A stretch of DNA of 64,000 nucleotides, taken from contig VXSP01000030.1 of NCBI GenBank assembly GCA_009837885.1, positions 62,001 to 126,000 on the forward strand, read 5' to 3'. The notes under the pieces are model-generated. The model searched no databases, was not told the DNA's origin, and saw nothing but the letters and a program-made list of their open reading frames with translations. Both the position numbers and the translations under genes were made by a program. The stretch is from Holophagales bacterium. Its GTDB lineage: Bacteria; Acidobacteriota; Thermoanaerobaculia; Multivoradales; Multivoraceae. Each line of letters begins with the position of its first letter. Position 1 is the first letter of the stretch. This document shows positions 6,921 to 54,667 of the stretch, piece after piece.

Positions 6921-8113
6921 GCGTGCGCAGGCTCGCCGTACTCGGCGCCACCGGCTCGGTCGGTGAGGCGGCCCTTGCCGTCGTGCGCCGGCACCCCGAG
7001 AAGCTCCAGGTGTGTGTCCTGGCGGCAAGGGGCACGAAGCCCGCGCGGCTCGCGGAGCTGGCGCGCGAGTTCCGGCCTCGCCGGGTGGTCGTCGAGACGG
7101 AGCGGGCGGCGGGCCGCCTGCGTCCCGACCTGCCTCCGGGCACGGACGTCGGTTGGGGCGAAGCCGCCCTGGTCGACGCGGTCGGGGACGGCAAGAACGA
7201 TCTCGTGCTGACCGCGATCGTCGGCGCGGCCGGTCTCAAGCCCGCCGCGGCGGCCCTTGCCGCCGGCGCCGACCTGGCGCTGGCGAACAAGGAGGCGATG
7301 GTCGCCGCCGGGCCTCACCTGCGCCGGCTGGCGGCCGGCTCGGGCGCGAGAATCCTGCCGGTCGACAGCGAACACGCCGCCATCCACCAGGCGCTGCGGG
7401 CGGGCCGGCGCCGCGAGGTCCGGCGCCTCGTGTTGACCGCCTCGGGCGGTCCGTTCCTGGACCGTGACCCGGCGACCCTCGACACGGTCACGCCGGCCGA
7501 GGCAACGGCCCATCCGACCTGGAACATGGGGGCCAAGATCAGCGTCGACTCGGCGACGCTGATGAACAAGGGGCTGGAACTGATCGAGGCGAGCTATCTG
7601 TTCGACGTTCCGGGATCGCGGATCGACATCCTGATCCACCCGCAGTCCCTGGTTCACTCGATCGTCGAGTTCCGGGACGGCAACTCGATCGCCCAGATCT
7701 CGGCCAACGACATGGAGTACCCGATCCGGTACGCCCTTTCTCATCCCGAACGCTGGCCGCGCCCGGAGGACGGCGCCGCGAATGGACTGAGTGAACTACT
7801 GGAGACGACCTCCGAGCTCCAGTTCAGGAAGGTCGACCCGGAGGTGTTCCCGGCGCCGTCCCTCGCCCGCGAGGCGCTCATGCGGGGGAACGGGGCGCCG
7901 GCGGTGCTCAACGCGGCGAACGAGACCGCGGTGGCGGCGTTCCTCGGCGGCTCGGCGCCCTTCACCACCATCGTGACGGCGGTGGCGGAAGTGCTCGACC
8001 GTCACGGCCGGGAAACCGGCGGCGCGGAGCCGGCGACGATCGACGAGGCTCTCGAATGGGATTCCTGGGGCCGACGCCGCGCCCGGGAAGTCCTCGCGCA
8101 GCTTCGCGGTTAG
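6917..8113 (+). CDS. dxr: 1-deoxy-D-xylulose 5-phosphate reductoisomerase (MEP pathway)
   Basis: Second step of the non-mevalonate (MEP) isoprenoid pathway: DXP plus NADPH to 2-C-methyl-D-erythritol 4-phosphate. 398 residues, family length. Seen: N-terminal NADPH fold LAVLGATGSVGEAAL, ALANKEAMVAAG, LPVDSEHAAIHQAL (metal Asp/Glu), LTASGGPF, GAKISVDSATLMNKGLELIE (active-site Lys/Ser/Asn/Glu) and IHPQSLVHS. The GTG start overlaps the cdsA stop. The coexistence with a complete-looking mevalonate branch at 49035-54667 is unusual. A full MEP pathway elsewhere in the genome is inferred, not seen. Confidence 0.96.
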   Translation: MSVRRLAVLGATGSVGEAALAVVRRHPEKLQVCVLAARGTKPARLAELAREFRPRRVVVETERAAGRLRPDLPPGTDVGWGEAALVDAVGDGKNDLVLTAIVGAAGLKPAAAALAAGADLALANKEAMVAAGPHLRRLAAGSGARILPVDSEHAAIHQALRAGRRREVRRLVLTASGGPFLDRDPATLDTVTPAEATAHPTWNMGAKISVDSATLMNKGLELIEASYLFDVPGSRIDILIHPQSLVHSIVEFRDGNSIAQISANDMEYPIRYALSHPERWPRPEDGAANGLSELLETTSELQFRKVDPEVFPAPSLAREALMRGNGAPAVLNAANETAVAAFLGGSAPFTTIVTAVAEVLDRHGRETGGAEPATIDEALEWDSWGRRRAREVLAQLRG

Positions 8114-8149
8114 CATCCACGGAAGAGCGCGACGGCGCCCGCTCGCACG

Positions 8150-9460
8150 ATGACCTTCCTGAGCAACATACTGGCCTTCCTGGTCGTGGTCGGAGTGATC
8201 ATCTTCATCCACGAACTGGGGCACTTCGTGGCCGCGAGGCTGTTCCGGATCCGGGTCCGGGTCTTCTCCATCGGCATCGGTTCCCGCATCTGGGGTTTCG
8301 AGCGCGGCGGCACGGAGTACCGGCTGGCCATGATTCCGCTCGGCGGCTATGTCGCCTTCTCGGGAATCGACGCCACGAACCCGACGGGCGACGCGGGCGA
8401 CTTCACCGCCAAACCGCGCTGGCAGCGAGTGATCGTGCTCCTGGCGGGCCCGGCGGCGAACGTCGTGCTGTCGATCGTCCTGATCGCGGCGGTACTGATG
8501 GCCGGGACCGAGCTGGCCGGACCGCGGGACCTGAGCACCGAAATCGGCGCCGTGGCGCCCGAATCGGCCGCGGCCGAAGCCGGTCTCGCGGCGGGCGATG
8601 TGATCCTGCGCCTGGACGGCGAGCACGTGTCCGACTGGCGGGAGCTCTCGAACACCATCCTGATGTCGCCGGAACGCCGGCTCGATGTCGACTTCGAGCG
8701 CGACGGCGAAGCCCTCAGCACCGTGCTCGTCCCTCAGAGGATGCCGCGATACGAACTGGGCGACGCGGGGCTCTACGCCAGCCTCCTGCCGCGGGTGCGC
8801 CAGGTGTTCGAGGACACTCCGGCCGAGCAGGCCGGTCTGCGGTACGGGGACACGCTCTACGCCGTCGACGGCCATGCCGTCGCCGACGCCGACGACTTCC
8901 GCCGGCTCGTCGAGCCGCGGGCGGGCGAGCAGGTCAGCATCGAAATCGGCCGCGGCGAGGATCGCGTCGTCGTCCAGCTCGTGCCGGAGAGCGAGGCCGG
9001 GGTCGGCCGGGCCGGCATCGCGATCAGCCACTTCTCCTATCAGCGAGTCGGCCCGGTCGCGGCAATTGTGGAAAGCGCACGGATCAACTGGGAGACGACG
9101 ACCGAGATCTTCGGCTTCCTGGGCGGCCTGATGGAACGCCGGGTCTCACCGCAGAGCGCGCTGGCCGGCCCGATCGAGATTGGCCGCATCAGCGGTCAGG
9201 CGGCTCGCAGGAGCTTCAGCGACCTGGTGTTTCTGATCGCCCTGATCAGCCTGAACCTCTGCATCCTGAACCTGCTGCCGATCCCGATGCTCGACGGCGG
9301 CCAACTCGTCATCCTGCTGCTCGAGAGCGTTCTGCGCCGCGACCTCTCGATCCAGTTCAAGAACCTGGTCACCCAGTTCGGTCTGGTGGTGGTCGTGGCC
9401 ATCATGTTGTTCGCGATCTACTTCGACCTGGTGAAGAACCTGCCCGGCCTCGGGCGCTGA
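8150..9460 (+). CDS. rseP: RIP-type site-2 zinc metalloprotease RseP
   Basis: Inner-membrane protease that cleaves transmembrane segments of anti-sigma factors and remnant signal peptides. 436 residues. HELGH zinc motif at residues 21-25 inside the first helix, followed by AMIPLGGYVAF; two PDZ domains in the middle (for example AAEAGLAAGDVILRLDGEHV and EQAGLRYGDTLYAVDGHAV); C-terminal NLLPIPMLDGGQLV supplies the third zinc ligand. It starts 36 bases after dxr in the classical cdsA-dxr-rseP order, which makes an envelope-stress role likely. Confidence 0.95.
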   Translation: MTFLSNILAFLVVVGVIIFIHELGHFVAARLFRIRVRVFSIGIGSRIWGFERGGTEYRLAMIPLGGYVAFSGIDATNPTGDAGDFTAKPRWQRVIVLLAGPAANVVLSIVLIAAVLMAGTELAGPRDLSTEIGAVAPESAAAEAGLAAGDVILRLDGEHVSDWRELSNTILMSPERRLDVDFERDGEALSTVLVPQRMPRYELGDAGLYASLLPRVRQVFEDTPAEQAGLRYGDTLYAVDGHAVADADDFRRLVEPRAGEQVSIEIGRGEDRVVVQLVPESEAGVGRAGIAISHFSYQRVGPVAAIVESARINWETTTEIFGFLGGLMERRVSPQSALAGPIEIGRISGQAARRSFSDLVFLIALISLNLCILNLLPIPMLDGGQLVILLLESVLRRDLSIQFKNLVTQFGLVVVVAIMLFAIYFDLVKNLPGLGR

Positions 9461-48373: not shown

Positions 48374-49048
48374 CTAGTTCGCTTCCCGCACGAGCACCTT
48401 GGACGCGGCGGGGAAGCCGAGGCTGAACTCGCGCGCATCCGAGACCACCGCAACGCTGCCGGCCGTCTCGTCCCGCGCCGCCACCTCGACCAGGCTGCCG
48501 GGCATCAACCCTTCGCGCTCCGCGAAGCGCAGGAACTCGGCGTTCTGGTCCGTCACCCGAACCACCTCGACGACCTGGTTCAAGGCGCACTTCAACAGGC
48601 TCGGATGATCGACGAGCTCGATGTGGCCGTCGGCGCTCGGAATCGGATCGCCGTGGGGATCCACCGATGGATGGCCGAGCATCTCGTCCATCCGCTCGAT
48701 CATCCGTCCGGAAACGGAGTGCTCTAGCAACTCGGCCTCGGAGTGGACCTCACTCCAGTCGAAACCCATCACGTTGACCAGAAAGAGCTCGATCAGCCGA
48801 TGCCGTCTGAGCACGTGCGTCGCCAGCTTGCGACCGGCCGGCAGGAGTCGGACTCCGCTGTACGGTTCGTAGGCGATCAGCCCGGACTCGGCGAGGGTCT
48901 TCATCATCGCCGTGACCGAGGCGGGAGCCACCTTGAGGCGCGCCGCGATCCGTCCCATCGGTACGAGTTCCGCGCCCTCCAACCGGGCTTCGTGCTCCGC
49001 CAGGAAGATGCACTTCAGGTAGTCCTCGACGGTGCTACTGGCGCGCAT
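48374..49048 (-). CDS. DtxR/MntR-family metal-dependent regulator in the mevalonate operon
   Basis: 224 residues from the ATG at 49048. N-terminal winged helix (TVEDYLKCIFLAEHEARLEG; AARLKVAPASVTAMMKTLAE), a metal-binding dimerisation domain (RHRLIELFLVNVMGFDWSEV; HSEAELLEHSVSGRMIERMD; DPHGDPIPSADG) and a C-terminal FeoA/SH3-like domain. By family a Fe2+ or Mn2+ sensing repressor. It overlaps the isopentenyl phosphate kinase gene by 14 bases, so it is the last gene of the mevalonate operon. Whether it controls that operon or only rides in it is unknown. Confidence 0.88.
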   Translation of the reverse strand: MRASSTVEDYLKCIFLAEHEARLEGAELVPMGRIAARLKVAPASVTAMMKTLAESGLIAYEPYSGVRLLPAGRKLATHVLRRHRLIELFLVNVMGFDWSEVHSEAELLEHSVSGRMIERMDEMLGHPSVDPHGDPIPSADGHIELVDHPSLLKCALNQVVEVVRVTDQNAEFLRFAEREGLMPGSLVEVAARDETAGSVAVVSDAREFSLGFPAASKVLVREAN

Positions 49049-49961
49049 CTTCCACCTCGCTGGCACGCACGGCTGTACCGGTTGGACGCACGAGTGTACC
49101 GGCGCTCTCCGCCTCCCCGTCCGCGTCCCGCAGCACCGACTCGAGAAGGCCGGGGCGGCGCCCGTCGATGATGAGCGATTCAACGCCGCGCCGCGCCAGC
49201 GCCCAGGCGGTCGACAGGCGATGCTCCATCCCGCCAGTGACGTCGACCGCCGGTGAGCCGCCGGCAGCCGCCGACGCCGCGCGGATGTTCGCCGCGTCGA
49301 TGCGGCGTACGAGCCGGCCGGCGCCGTCCAGCACGCCGGCCGTGGCACCGAGCCACACCGCCCGTCGCACCTCGATACCGAGCGGCACGAGGGCGCGAAC
49401 AAGGAACTCGAACACCGTCTCCGTCGACGCGATCGAGGCCCCGCGCGTCCGGTCCACGACGACATCACCCATCGTGACCGGCACCAGGCCCTCCCGCAGC
49501 GCCGCCGCCAGCGGTGCGGGCGGCGGGCCGTCAGCCTCCCCGTCGTCAGCGACGAGAAACCCGGAAGGCAGTTGAGAATAGGCCGGAACGCCGGCCTCGA
49601 CCAGGCTTCCGACGACCAGCCGGTGGAGCTCGAACGCCGCGGACTGCGTGCGCGCGATGCCCATCCGGTCCGCGCCCGGCCCTGGACCGCTGCCGCCCCC
49701 GCCGCCGGCGAGGCCGGCCGCTCGGGCCTCCGGGTGTCCGAAGGAACCGCTGCCGTGACCGACCACGAGGCCGTCCCCCGACCAACCGGCCGCGATCTCG
49801 GCCGCCAGCCGCCGCAGGTGTTCCTTCGCGACCGTGCGCGGTTTCGTCTTGTCCGTGATCAGGCTGCCGCCGAGCTTGACCAGCGTGACGTCCAGCCGCC
49901 CGTCCCCGGCCTCCGCCACGCCCGCAGCGGCCGCACTCAAAGCTCGGCTCCGTGGCGCCAC
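49035..49961 (-). CDS. Isopentenyl phosphate kinase
   Basis: 308 residues. Amino-acid-kinase fold: VTLVKLGGSLITDKTKPRTV near residue 25, VVGHGSGSFGHPEARAAG (the phosphate-binding H-G-x-G-S-F-G-H block that marks IPK), LREGLVPVTMGDVVVDRTRG, and AVDVTGGMEHRLSTAWALAR. It phosphorylates isopentenyl phosphate to isopentenyl diphosphate in the alternative mevalonate pathway. Glutamate 5-kinase and aspartokinase relatives lack the GHGSGSFGH block. A Gly-rich insertion (GGGGGSGPGPG) follows it. It overlaps the decarboxylase gene by 25 bases and the regulator gene by 14. Confidence 0.88.
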   Translation of the reverse strand: MAPRSRALSAAAAGVAEAGDGRLDVTLVKLGGSLITDKTKPRTVAKEHLRRLAAEIAAGWSGDGLVVGHGSGSFGHPEARAAGLAGGGGGSGPGPGADRMGIARTQSAAFELHRLVVGSLVEAGVPAYSQLPSGFLVADDGEADGPPPAPLAAALREGLVPVTMGDVVVDRTRGASIASTETVFEFLVRALVPLGIEVRRAVWLGATAGVLDGAGRLVRRIDAANIRAASAAAGGSPAVDVTGGMEHRLSTAWALARRGVESLIIDGRRPGLLESVLRDADGEAESAGTLVRPTGTAVRASEVEDARQ

Positions 49962-50989
49962 ACCGGCGGGCCGCCGGTGCGATCGCGGAGCACCCGCTCG
50001 ACGCTGCCGAGTGCCATGAGCCGTTCCGCCACCCGCGCTTCGTCGGCCGGCTGGCAGATCACATGGACGTTCGCGCCCGCATCCATCGTGGCGTAGGCCG
50101 CCACGCCGTCCGCGCGCAGATCGCGGACCGCGGCCAGCACCTCGATCGTGCCCGGTGTCCAGTAGTACACGGGAGGCCTGGACGACATCGCGATCAGGTG
50201 GAGATCGATTCCCTCTTCCTCGACCGCCGGCCCCAGGGCCTCGAAGTCGCGCCGTCTGAGCGCGGCGCGCACCTGTTCGAGACGCTCCTCGAGCGCGGCG
50301 AGGCGCGGCGCGAAGTAGGGACTGCTGACCGCGAGCTGGTGCCCGTCGCGCGAAGACACCTTCTTGGCGCCGGTCTCGACGACGGCGACCACATCACAGA
50401 GCGGCCAGGCGTCCTCGTCCAGGACCTGAACCGCGCTGTTCTCGTCCCCGTCGGGCCACTCCACGTAGCCGCCGTAGGCCGAGCGCGCGGCCGAACCCGA
50501 ACCGCTGCTCCGCGACAGGGCGGACAGGGTCCGCGGTGGCAGGTCGAAGCCCATGGCGGCCGTCACGGCGAGGGTCAGGGCGGTGAAGCCCGAAGCGGAA
50601 GAGGCGATCCCGGCAGCCGCCGGGAACGTGTTGCCCGTCGCGATCCGGAACCCACCCGTGTATGGCGCCGCCGTTTGCCGCGACCACTCGCGCAGCCTGT
50701 CCAGGTGGCGCCGCGTGCGCTCGACGAAGGCCGGCGGCGCTTCCGCGGCGGGCTCGGTTCGACCGGCAGCCGGCTCTTCCAGCCAGACGATCTCGTCGTC
50801 CCGCCCGTCGGCCAGAGGGGACGCCGAGCAGATCGACCGGCAGGCGTCGAGGGTCATCGACAGCGAGCGGTTGAAGGGTACCGGGCCCGTGAGATCGCGG
50901 GCGCCCCAGTACTTGATGAAGGCGATGTTCGAAGGCGCCTCGGCGGTCACGGGCCCAGGCTGATGGGCCGGTTCCAACACGGAGTTCAT
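49937..50989 (-). CDS. Phosphomevalonate / diphosphomevalonate decarboxylase
   Basis: 350 residues, GHMP fold. APSNIAFIKYWGARD opens the protein, where classical diphosphomevalonate decarboxylases read KYWGKRD; FNRSLSMTLD and SSGSGSAARSAYGGYVEW follow (catalytic Ser/Arg), and the catalytic Asp lies in YATMDAGANVHVIC. It decarboxylates a phosphorylated mevalonate to isopentenyl (di)phosphate. Because an IPK gene follows and no phosphomevalonate kinase is present, I favour 5-phosphomevalonate as substrate. The sequence alone does not settle this. Confidence 0.85.
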   Translation of the reverse strand: MNSVLEPAHQPGPVTAEAPSNIAFIKYWGARDLTGPVPFNRSLSMTLDACRSICSASPLADGRDDEIVWLEEPAAGRTEPAAEAPPAFVERTRRHLDRLREWSRQTAAPYTGGFRIATGNTFPAAAGIASSASGFTALTLAVTAAMGFDLPPRTLSALSRSSGSGSAARSAYGGYVEWPDGDENSAVQVLDEDAWPLCDVVAVVETGAKKVSSRDGHQLAVSSPYFAPRLAALEERLEQVRAALRRRDFEALGPAVEEEGIDLHLIAMSSRPPVYYWTPGTIEVLAAVRDLRADGVAAYATMDAGANVHVICQPADEARVAERLMALGSVERVLRDRTGGPPVWRHGAEL

Positions 50990-51001: not shown

Positions 51002-52120
51002 CTACAGTCGATCGGCGATGGGACTCTCGAATCTCAGACCGTCGGCGCCGATTGCCGCGTTGACGGGCTCGAGGTCCGAGATTCCATCGACCGTCTCCTC
51101 CGGCCGGCCGCTGAGCACGCAGATCAGGGCACCGGCCGACTCGCCTTCGAGAGCCCCGGCCCCGGAGATCTTCGCCGCGCCCCCGGCCGCTTCCACCGAC
51201 GCGATCCGCTGCGCGACCGCCGGCGGCACCACGCCGAGTTCGACCAGGGCGCGGTGGCCGTCGGCGATCGCGGCAGCCGCATCCCGCGGCCCGCCGTCCC
51301 CCAGCGCCGCGCGAAAGGACTCGACCGCCGCCCCGATGCGGTCGAACACGGCGGTCGTCCGCTCGGGTTCGTCGTCGTAGCGCCGTCGCACCGCCGTGAC
51401 CACCGCGCCCGTCGTCTGGCCGGGCGTCCCGCTGTCGAGGATCCTGACCGCACCGGGAAGCCACTCCGGCCGCGGCAAGTCGTCGAATCGCAACTCGCCC
51501 TCCTCACGGCGGACGAGCAGGACGCCACCCCGTAGCACCGTGCCGCTGTCGATCCCCGACGGGAAACCGTGCTGCCGCCGCTCGACCTCGAGCGCCGCCG
51601 CCTCGATTGCCGCCAGTTCGTTCCGTGAGCGAACGCGCTTTCCCGCCAGTGCTCGGACGGCAGCAACCACTCCAACGGCGGCCGCGGCCGAACTGCCAAG
51701 GCCGGCACCAACCGGAACCTGGGACCGCAACCGCAGCTCCAAACCCCGTCGTCGCAGCTGTTCCGAAACCGCCGGTGGCAAAGATGCAGCCGCTTCACCG
51801 ACCGCGATCCTGACCAGGGCACTCCGGTCGTCCGCCGGTTTGAACGACACGTCGCCCGCTTCGAACCTGCCCCATCGACTGCGGGCGCGGTTCGTGAAGT
51901 CCTCAAGCGCCCGCCACGTGTGCTCTTCCTGAAGATCCAGGTCGGGCAAGTCCAGGCGGACCCGGCCGACATCCGTCGAACTGCAACGCGCCTCAACGGC
52001 AAGGCGCAGGTCCACCGCCGCCACCACCGCCGGCCGGCCATACACCGCCGCATGCTCCCCCATCAGGATCACCTTCCCCGGCACGCTCAACCGCACCGCG
52101 GACGCCACATCTCCGGTCAT
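51002..52120 (-). CDS. mvk: Mevalonate kinase
   Basis: 372 residues from the ATG at 52120, which keeps the gene clear of the repeat upstream. GHMP motif 1 VPGKVILMGEHAAVYGRPAV and motif 2 VPVGAGLGSSAAAAVGVVAA are those of mevalonate kinase rather than phosphomevalonate kinase. HGFPSGIDSGTVLRGG and AKISGAGALEGESAGALI complete the fold. It phosphorylates mevalonate at O5. It precedes the decarboxylase by 12 bases. Confidence 0.92.
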   Translation of the reverse strand: MTGDVASAVRLSVPGKVILMGEHAAVYGRPAVVAAVDLRLAVEARCSSTDVGRVRLDLPDLDLQEEHTWRALEDFTNRARSRWGRFEAGDVSFKPADDRSALVRIAVGEAAASLPPAVSEQLRRRGLELRLRSQVPVGAGLGSSAAAAVGVVAAVRALAGKRVRSRNELAAIEAAALEVERRQHGFPSGIDSGTVLRGGVLLVRREEGELRFDDLPRPEWLPGAVRILDSGTPGQTTGAVVTAVRRRYDDEPERTTAVFDRIGAAVESFRAALGDGGPRDAAAAIADGHRALVELGVVPPAVAQRIASVEAAGGAAKISGAGALEGESAGALICVLSGRPEETVDGISDLEPVNAAIGADGLRFESPIADRL

Positions 52121-52162
52121 CGAGCGACCCGAAAGCCCGACGCCGTCCAGCCTGTCCGCGGG

Positions 52163-52313
52163 CCGTTGGGGAGGCTCCCCAGCGGACTCGGAGCGAGCGA
52201 CTTCCACGAACGCCCCCGAAACCGAGCGCTACCGAAGCGAGCGGAGCGGAGCGAGCGCCAACCTCTCATCCACTCAGGGAGCGGGAGCGGCCGCTGGGGA
52301 GCCTCCCCAACGG
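52163..52313. repeat. Family B MITE-like element inside the mevalonate operon
   Basis: 151 bp with perfect 23-base terminal inverted repeats (52163-52185 and 52291-52313; arms contain TTGGGGAGGCTCCCC and GGGGAGCCTCCCCAA). The interior shares GCGAGCGCC and CTCATCCACTCAGG with the other family B copies. It occupies most of the 233-base gap between HMG-CoA reductase and mevalonate kinase, contains no gene, and could form a stable hairpin in the operon mRNA. Confidence 0.85.
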
Positions 52314-52353: not shown

Positions 52354-53631
52354 TCAATCCGCGCGTGCGGCGCTGGAGCGGCCAAGCCGCTCGTGGGCCC
52401 GCGCCAGGTCACGCGACGTGAACGCCGCGGTCAGGGAGAGTTCGCCGGCCAGGACGACGGCGCCGACGATCTCGGCCAGCCGGCGCACCGCCGCGCCGGG
52501 CCGCTCCGCGTCGGGCCGCACACCCATCACCTCGAGCGCTTCGCGCTGCGTGTCCAGACCGGTGCCGCCGCCGATCGCGGCCAGCGGGCAATCCGGCATG
52601 TAGACGGACGCGTAGACGGAGCCGTCGTCGCGGGCCTCGAACGACGCCACACCCATCGCGCCCTCGACGACGTGGGCGAGATCCTGGCCGCAGGCGACAA
52701 AGACCGCCGCCAGCACGTTCGCGAACTGCGCGTTGAAGGCGAGCGCGCCGGCCGCCACGGAACCGAGCAGATTCTTGCGGTAGGCCACATCCTGGAGTGC
52801 CTTCGCCTCCGACTTGAGGACCTTGCGCACGGTCGTCTCGTCGAGCACGACCTCGGCGTGAATCCGCTTGCCGCGACCGAGCTGGTAGTTGACCGCGGAC
52901 GGTTTCTTGTCGACGCAGTAGTTCCCCGACAGCGCCACGCACTGGGCGCCCGTCTCCGGCTCGATCAGCTCGGACACGACGCGGTCGCAGGCGATAGTCA
53001 CCATGTTCATGCCCATCGCGTCGCCGGTGGCGAAGCGGAAGCGAAGGAACACGGTGCTTCCGACCACCGACGGTCGAATGTCGCGAAGCTCCAGGAACCG
53101 GCTTGTCTCCTGCGCCTTGGCGCGAATCCTCTCCTCGTTGGCTTCCAGCCACTCGAGCAGCCGCCGGGTGTCCTCGATACCCGTCGTGCGGAAGACCGGC
53201 GCCCGGGTCATGCCCACGTCCTCGACGAAGACGGTGGCGCCGCCCGCGGCCGTGATCGCGCGACAGCCGCGGTTCACGCTGGCTAGCAGCGCCCCCTCGG
53301 TGGTCGCCATCGGCACGCAGACCGTGCCGTCGATCTCGCTCCCCCGCACGTGAACCGGTCCGGCGACGCCCATCGGCACCTGGGCGGCGCCGATGAAGTT
53401 CTCGCAGTTCTGGGTAGACGCCCGTTCGCCGTCCAGGGCGTAGCTGCCGATCGCCGTGAGCGGACCGCTGCCGGTCGACAGGTCCAGAGCCCGGCGCCGC
53501 ACCGCGGCTTGCCCTGCCGCGTCGAGGCCCGGCGGGGGCCTGTGGAAGCCGCGCTCCGAGCCGGCGATCTCGGCCGCCGCGGCCTCGAGTTCGGGCGCAA
53601 GTTCAGAGCCGGAAGCCAGCCGATCAGCCAT
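52354..53631 (-). CDS. Hydroxymethylglutaryl-CoA reductase, class I type
   Basis: 425 residues. Class I (archaeal/eukaryotic-like) signature: ENFIGAAQVPMGVAGPVHV, catalytic Glu in PMATTEGALLASVNRG, FATGDAMGMNM, catalytic Lys in CVDKKPSAVNY, catalytic Asp in VFVACGQDLAHVVEG, and a C-terminal His in RAHERLGR. Reduces HMG-CoA to mevalonate with NADPH, the committed step of the mevalonate route. Its GGAGG site and ATG overlap the end of idi2 by eight bases, so it is coupled to it. Class II enzymes of many bacteria lack these motifs. Confidence 0.95.
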   Translation of the reverse strand: MADRLASGSELAPELEAAAAEIAGSERGFHRPPPGLDAAGQAAVRRRALDLSTGSGPLTAIGSYALDGERASTQNCENFIGAAQVPMGVAGPVHVRGSEIDGTVCVPMATTEGALLASVNRGCRAITAAGGATVFVEDVGMTRAPVFRTTGIEDTRRLLEWLEANEERIRAKAQETSRFLELRDIRPSVVGSTVFLRFRFATGDAMGMNMVTIACDRVVSELIEPETGAQCVALSGNYCVDKKPSAVNYQLGRGKRIHAEVVLDETTVRKVLKSEAKALQDVAYRKNLLGSVAAGALAFNAQFANVLAAVFVACGQDLAHVVEGAMGVASFEARDDGSVYASVYMPDCPLAAIGGGTGLDTQREALEVMGVRPDAERPGAAVRRLAEIVGAVVLAGELSLTAAFTSRDLARAHERLGRSSAARAD

Positions 53632-54667
53632 CGCCCGCCTCCTTCAGCAACGGCACGCGGCGCAACGCCGCGAGGTCGGCCGCACCGGTGCAGAACATGC
53701 ACGTACGCAGCTCGAAGGCCGTGCGGGAGATGCGATCGACGACCGCCTCGGTCGACGCGTTGGCCGCCTCGAGGAACGGGAAGGCCATGCCGGCGACGTC
53801 GGCGCCAAGGGCCAGCGCCTTCGCCGCGTCGACGCCGGAGCGGATGCCGCCGCTGCCGATCACCTGGACGCCGGGCACCGCCGTCAACTGGCGGATCGAC
53901 TCCGGCGTCGGCACTCCCCAGTCGGCGAAGCGCTCACCCAGCGCCACCTCGTCGGCCCGGGCCGCCTCGATCCGCGCCCAGCTCGTGCCTCCCACTCCGG
54001 CCGTGTCCAGGATGCGGACACCGACGTTGGCGAGCTCGCGGCCGACCGCGGCCGAGATGCCGCAACCGATCTCCTTGACCACGACCGGCACGTCCAGCGC
54101 CTCGACCACGCGCGCGATCTTCGGCAGCAGGCCGCGGAAGTTCAGTTGGCCTTCCGGTTGCAGCGCCTCCTGCAGCGCGTTCAGGTGCAGCACCAGGGCG
54201 TCGGCCTCGACCATGTCGACCGCCGCCCGGCACTCTTCGATGCCGTAGCCGTAGTTCAGTTGCACCGCACCCAGATTGGCCAGGATCGGCACGCTGGGCG
54301 CGAACTCCCGCACCCGGAACGTCGCCGCGGTTTCCGGATCGTCGATCGCCTTGCGCTGCGAGCCGACGCCGAGAGCGACCCGCCTCGCCTCGGCCGCTTC
54401 GGCCAGACGGCGATTGATCTCCTCCGCGGCGCCCGTTCCCCCCGTCATGCACGAGATGAGCAACGGCGCCTCGAGTTCCCGTCCCAGGAAGTCGCAGCCG
54501 ATCCGGACGTCGTCGAAGTCGATCTCCGGCAGCGCCCTGTGCTCGAAGCGGTAATCGTCGAAGTAGCTGCGCTCGACCTGCATGCGCCGGTCCAGCGCCA
54601 GCCGGATGTGCTCAGCCTTGCGATCCCGCTCGCCCTCCGCCGCCGCCAGCAGCGGACGGGTACTCAC
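53624..54667 (-). CDS. fni: Type 2 isopentenyl-diphosphate delta-isomerase
   Basis: 347 residues, FMN TIM barrel. RKAEHIRLALDRRMQVERSY, PLLISCMTGGTGAAEEINRR, ALGVGSQRKAIDDPETAATF, LHLNALQEALQPEGQLNFRG (the QE pair of the catalytic site), VVVKEIGCGISA, and GSGGIRSGVDAAKALALGAD are family motifs. Interconverts IPP and DMAPP. First gene of the operon, with a GTG start. A TACAGT box about 40 bases upstream is the only promoter-like hexamer I find. Confidence 0.95.
   Translation of the reverse strand: MSTRPLLAAAEGERDRKAEHIRLALDRRMQVERSYFDDYRFEHRALPEIDFDDVRIGCDFLGRELEAPLLISCMTGGTGAAEEINRRLAEAAEARRVALGVGSQRKAIDDPETAATFRVREFAPSVPILANLGAVQLNYGYGIEECRAAVDMVEADALVLHLNALQEALQPEGQLNFRGLLPKIARVVEALDVPVVVKEIGCGISAAVGRELANVGVRILDTAGVGGTSWARIEAARADEVALGERFADWGVPTPESIRQLTAVPGVQVIGSGGIRSGVDAAKALALGADVAGMAFPFLEAANASTEAVVDRISRTAFELRTCMFCTGAADLAALRRVPLLKEAGDG

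Follow-up and report, generated by a model that had tools for sequence, protein, structure and literature searches.

Does a decarboxylase of the mevalonate pathway that reads KYWGARD, with Ala in place of the Lys of the classical diphosphomevalonate decarboxylases (MDDs), act on a substrate with one phosphate fewer, as the initial annotation of this sequence proposed? The gene is encoded in a window, i.e., the whole stretch of 64,000 nt analysed here, from Holophagales bacterium GCA_009837885.1 (contig VXSP01000030.1, positions 62,001-126,000 of the forward strand). Its sequence, predicted fold and genomic context indicate that it very probably encodes the mevalonate 5-phosphate decarboxylase (MPD) of the alternative mevalonate pathway, the route that employs isopentenyl phosphate kinase (IPK), in a lineage of Acidobacteriota.

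The decarboxylase gene and its operon

The decarboxylase ORF (350 codons) was confirmed at exactly the coordinates given in Table 1; a plus-strand frame over the same interval was rejected, the real gene being on the minus strand. It belongs to a minus-strand operon with the order IDI2-HMGR-MVK-decarboxylase-IPK, in which 12 nt separate the end of the mevalonate kinase (MVK) gene from the start of the decarboxylase gene, and the final 25 nt of the latter are shared with the listed IPK frame. A metal-dependent regulator of the DtxR/MntR type is encoded after the IPK gene (48374-49468, minus strand, with the domain starting at about residue 144 of the ORF) and recurs after IPK in the closest homologous loci.

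Table 1. Features of the locus, in window coordinates
Feature	Coordinates	Strand	Remarks
Putative mevalonate 5-phosphate decarboxylase (MPD), 350 aa	49937..50989	-	standard annotation name: diphosphomevalonate decarboxylase
KYWGARD, residues 26-32	50894..50914	-	Ala30 codon 50900-50902; corresponds to S. epidermidis Lys21 and A. thermophila Asn20
Pro36	50882..50884	-	position of S. epidermidis Ile27 / R. castenholzii Arg83
Ser162, extra residue preceding GSGSA	50504..50506	-	not in A. thermophila MPD or the compared MDDs
GSGSAARS, residues 163-170	50480..50503	-	Ser164, Ser166, Arg169 retained
KKVSSRDGH, residues 209-217	50339..50365	-	Lys209 invariant; His217 corresponds to A. thermophila His194, Met in MDD
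MDAGANVHV, residues 302-310	50060..50086	-	catalytic Asp303
Isopentenyl phosphate kinase (IPK)	49035..49961	-	NF040647 127.5 bits, cut-off 120; nearest solved chains are IPKs
Mevalonate kinase	51002..52207	-	best model TIGR00549 148.2 bits, below cut-off 163.05
HMG-CoA reductase	52354..53631	-	
Type 2 isopentenyl-diphosphate delta-isomerase	53624..54667	-	TIGR02151 392.4 bits, cut-off 281.3
DXR (MEP pathway)	about 6926-8098	+	

The MPD reading is favored by the adjoining IPK, which passes the cut-off of its model, and by the whole-genome search for phosphomevalonate kinase (PMK), in which the sole match to the one model used, TIGR01220, was sub-threshold and turned out to be a homoserine kinase, the control, Lactococcus lactis, also falling below the cut-off of this model. 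The genome thus shows the combination expected of an MPD pathway, IPK present and PMK, as judged by one model only, absent. Given the absence of PMK, mevalonate diphosphate is not expected to form, and it is mainly this absence that would set the specificity of the enzyme in the cell. In the mechanism that we propose, the enzyme would bind mevalonate 5-phosphate and ATP, phosphorylate the 3-OH and then eliminate phosphate and CO2 to yield isopentenyl phosphate, which would be converted to isopentenyl diphosphate by the adjoining IPK.

The same reading also follows from the recurrence of the IPK-bearing operon in Acidobacteriota, Gemmatimonadota, Rhodothermota and Planctomycetota (specifically, in named Acidobacteriota bins, in bins of Gemmatimonadales, Rhodothermaceae and Salinibacteraceae and in a Planctomycetota bin). 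The IPK/MPD pathway is described in the literature consulted for Chloroflexota and archaea, and a full IPK operon in Acidobacteriota, together with its relatives in the other phyla, widens this range.

The phosphate-binding site and structural relatives

The substitution noted initially was confirmed: the site is occupied by Ala30, whereas Lys is found in the classical MDDs, specifically in the form KYWGKAN in E. faecalis, KYWGKKD in S. aureus and KYWGKRD in yeast, Cryptococcus, mouse, human and Arabidopsis. The initial annotation had also placed the replaced Lys in a phosphate-contacting region and had considered the Ser and Arg of GSGSAARS and the Asp of MDAGANVHV to be retained. Indeed, this Lys is listed among the phosphate-binding residues in Table 4 of PMC3857490, and Ser164, Ser166, Arg169 and Asp303 are all present. 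The six phosphate-binding positions given in that source are Tyr18, Lys21, Ile27, Ser139, Ser141 and Ser192 in S. epidermidis MDD and Tyr74, Leu77, Arg83, Ala201, Ser203 and Thr255 in R. castenholzii MPD, and the haloarchaea/Thermoplasmatales row of the same table has Met or Tyr at the place of Lys21 (Dellas et al., 2013; PMC3857490). The window protein has Tyr27, Ala30, Pro36, Ser164, Ser166 and Ser213 at these positions and, judged from the alignment, is MPD-like at the Lys position and MDD-like at the serines, with a residue of its own at the Ile27 position.

Given Pro36, Ser164 and Ser213, the window protein falls outside the R. castenholzii-type subgroup, which has Arg or Thr, Ala and Thr at the positions of Ile27, Ser139 and Ser192, respectively (Arg83, Ala201 and Thr255 in the R. 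castenholzii enzyme, compared via the residues of Table 4). Nevertheless, the latter enzyme resembles it in the neutral residue, Leu77, at the Lys21 position and in the genomic setting, described as including IPK and no PMK; it is reported to refuse MVAPP (PMC3857490).

The closest solved structures all belong to A. thermophila MPD, which further argues for the MPD reading. Among solved structures, 6n0x is the nearest in sequence (E 7e-59), with the E. faecalis and staphylococcal MDDs ranking below it; for the AlphaFold2 model (58 sequences, mean pLDDT 92.3), Foldseek ranks 1-17 are all A. thermophila MPD chains, followed by the MDDs, ligand-bound structures included. The predicted fold is that of a GHMP-type decarboxylase with the catalytic Asp and Lys, Lys209 being invariant and Asp303 nearly invariant in the alignment of 58 sequences; the E. 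faecalis MDD residue Lys187, within the matching stretch KDVSSRDG, is reported to be required for catalysis (PMC7414129).

The window protein and A. thermophila MPD have in common the fold, the His equivalent to His217, the replacement of the MDD Lys by a neutral residue, and the GSGSA and Asp motifs. Their identity is 36-37%, and the A. thermophila enzyme has Asn in place of Ala30, Arg in place of Pro36 and Pro in place of Ala306, and has no counterpart of Ser162. The classical MDDs (E. faecalis, S. aureus, yeast, human) share the fold, the ATP chemistry, the GSGSA-RS motif, Asp303 and Lys209, but have Lys in place of Ala30; those of E. faecalis and S. aureus additionally carry Met and Pro in place of His217 and Ala306, respectively. 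Four features went unmentioned in the initial annotation, namely His217, Ser162, Pro36 and Ala306 (Pro in the classical enzymes). The presence of Ala at the published Lys21 position and of the conserved PMD histidine at the published Met position, together with the loss of the Lys of KYWGK that typifies classical MDDs, supports assignment to MPD. Under this assignment, the small neutral Ala30 would take away the charge that binds the substrate diphosphate in the classical enzymes; His217 occupies the position of the Met of proven bacterial MDDs.

Loss of the MDD Lys has already been published as a rule for MPDs (PMC3857490, PMC11052028). The initial observation was right and its interpretation mostly right: the idea that the loss of charge fits one phosphate fewer agrees with the neutral residue of proven MPDs, with the IPK operon and with the failure of the PMK model to find PMK, but does not stand as a sufficient rule. 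The A. thermophila MPD, with Asn20, has been crystallised both with MVAP (6n0x) and with MVAPP (6n0y); the solved specificity mutant, 6n0z, alters two sites, N20K and H194M, which correspond to Ala30 and His217 (Thomas et al., 2019, ACS Chem Biol, as represented by the PDB titles, PMC9254496 and PMC11052028); both activities have been ascribed to Chloroflexota enzymes (PMC11052028); and three of the 76 IPK-labelled homologues surveyed below have K or R. Loss of the Lys by itself, therefore, does not exclude a diphosphate substrate. The residues, predicted fold, operon, missing PMK match and conservation are results of this analysis; the substrate of the window enzyme, its kinetics and any acceptance of mevalonate diphosphate in vitro we infer.

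The protein scores 209.8 bits with the MDD model TIGR01240 (cut-off 171.35) and 127.4 bits, far below the cut-off of 475, with the PMD model NF040704 (IPP_alt_MvaD); these scores and the three MDD-type serines speak against MPD. Conceivably, the gene encodes a classical MDD that tolerates Ala and is fed by a divergent PMK encoded elsewhere, with IPK only salvaging isopentenyl phosphate; the TIGR01240 score and Ser164, Ser166 and Ser213 conform to such a scenario. We consider it improbable, given that a neutral residue was seen at the site in no MDD examined, those in Table 4 of PMC3857490 included, that the PMK model finds homoserine kinase only, and that His217 is present instead of Met. The counterexamples that the initial annotation had named, a proven MDD with Ala or a proven MPD with Lys, were sought among the sequences and literature compared, and neither was found. 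Furthermore, TIGR01240 matches all 58 proteins of the family alignment, including the IPK-linked members, suggesting that the names it confers are likely wrong for much of the family; this standard model probably misnames the decarboxylation step as that of MDD.

An MEP pathway without canonical DXS in the same genome

The genome also encodes most of the MEP pathway: in addition to DXR in the window, IspH lies about 7 kb ahead of the window start, and IspG and IspF are encoded elsewhere. The decarboxylase could accordingly be a relict, or have another activity, e.g., that of a kinase only. This appears very unlikely because the gene is under purifying selection (dN/dS 0.13-0.20 against five homologues) and retains Asp303 and Lys209, and because the decarboxylase and IPK are each found above cut-off in 19 of 20 further genomes of the genus, and canonical DXS is above cut-off in none of the 21 genus genomes, the own one included, where the match is a transketolase. 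At the same curated cut-offs, DXR was detected in 19, IspH in 18, IspF in 18 and IspG in 16 of these 20 genomes, the remaining four having split or partial matches to IspG. Purifying selection on the decarboxylase, together with the neutral residue in 73 of the 76 IPK-labelled homologues, in turn favors the MPD reading.

In three further genera of the family, the decarboxylase and IPK are found, with no match to DXR, IspH, IspG or IspF. Two order-level genomes (G075 and G090) encode DXR and/or IspH and IspG, with DXS, decarboxylase and IPK all lacking above cut-off.

Loss of dxs has been reported in 6 of 31 cultivated Acidobacteria, along with one SD22 genome that has most of the mevalonate genes (PMC5462960), and in a survey of 4,400, 181 candidate species are listed as lacking Dxs only (PMC10663253). 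Hence, any novelty may lie only in the pairing of such an MEP pathway with a full alternative mevalonate operon; we found no report of Acidobacteriota with this combination in the open-access literature searched.

The site residue across the family

Ala30 is present in all 12 same-genus-like homologues (at least 81% identity) that have the site, a 13th (L013) ending before it, and in all 15 same-genus sequences of a second set, the own one included, which may overlap with the 12; the substitution is thus not a chance event. Outside the genus, order-level relatives have a neutral residue in 15 of 15 loci (A 13, I 1, S 1). The site was readable in 78 of 80 homologous loci, with a neutral residue in 66 and K or R in 12.

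For comparison with the pathway, homologues were scored IPK-positive if NF040647 was above cut-off genome-wide or an IPK ORF lay within the same locus (L047 and L053 from split or partial hits); the genome-wide search for IPK and PMK was made for 50 of the 80 loci. Both E. faecalis and S. aureus were taken as IPK-negative by assumption, and no label was assigned to L069, A. thermophila, L177 or L178. Among the 88 labelled rows, the 76 IPK-positive ones have A (40), V (11), N (6), I (5), T (4), M (4), Q (2), R (2), S (1) and K (1), and the 12 IPK-negative ones K (6), R (5) and L (1), an association of the neutral residue with IPK that is significant by row count (Fisher p 1.3e-10). The expectation, raised initially, of a neutral residue among IPK-associated homologues is thus borne out in 73 of 76 rows and fails in three, L067 (K), L070 (R) and L080 (R), which show that IPK can adjoin K or R types and to that extent suit a classical MDD with a salvaging IPK. 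In a tree built by a quick method (without L013 and L040, which end before the motif, and L001, the own copy), the enzymes of the Acidobacteriota type cluster together, with strong support, in a single group of 51 rows, and there are only three independent IPK contrasts. Given these three contrasts and the K/R exceptions, the row count was not used as proof and the idea of predicting the pathway from the residue alone was rejected; the association agrees with the MPD reading and is not independent proof of it.

Among chosen rows, the equivalent of His217 is found in 39/39 Acidobacteriota-type, 7/7 Chloroflexales, 7/7 Anaerolineae-type and 9/9 Caldilineaceae-type proteins, and Met in 4/4 of the MDD type (two MDDs of solved structure plus two homologues from actinobacteria). 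His is also present in three of four K-type Patescibacteria, so that its exclusivity to MPD was rejected. The Ser162 position, again among chosen rows, carries Ser in the Acidobacteriota-type and Chloroflexales proteins, holds C, S or A in four of five IPK-linked Patescibacteria-type ones and is a gap elsewhere. Ala306 replaces Pro in 30 of the 39 Acidobacteriota-type rows.

As a tentative proposal, which we regard as possible rather than probable, Acidobacteriota, Gemmatimonadota and Rhodothermota could possess a separate MPD lineage with a small neutral residue and an inserted Ser before GSGSA, as opposed to the Asn/Arg or Leu/Arg of Chloroflexota, accompanied in the genus of the window by an MEP route without canonical DXS. 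If so, two unusual isoprenoid routes would operate in one cell. The residue rule itself is already published; the gene is of an ordinary kind and its distribution slightly new. The natural residues at the first site of the Lys/His pair (A, S, T, I, V, M, N, Q, L, K and R) provide a test set for the choice between one and two phosphates by decarboxylases.

In the actinobacterium Phytomonospora (L041; 7998-9008, plus strand), a homologue with KYWGL is encoded beside HMGR and MVK, in a genome with no IPK above cut-off and no PMK match, a further exception to the residue rule. The family was found in 3 of 149 sampled genomes of Actinomycetota, two with KYWGKRD and Met, and the third, that of L041 itself (L179), with Leu and His.

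Five Patescibacteria-type homologues (L061, L072, L073, L074 and L077; approximately 8001-8930) have Asn where the catalytic Asp is expected (NTGQ), along with Gln at the His/Met site and Arg in the position of the Lys; these proteins could act solely as kinases or have some other activity. Two more GHMP kinase ORFs are present at four of these five loci.
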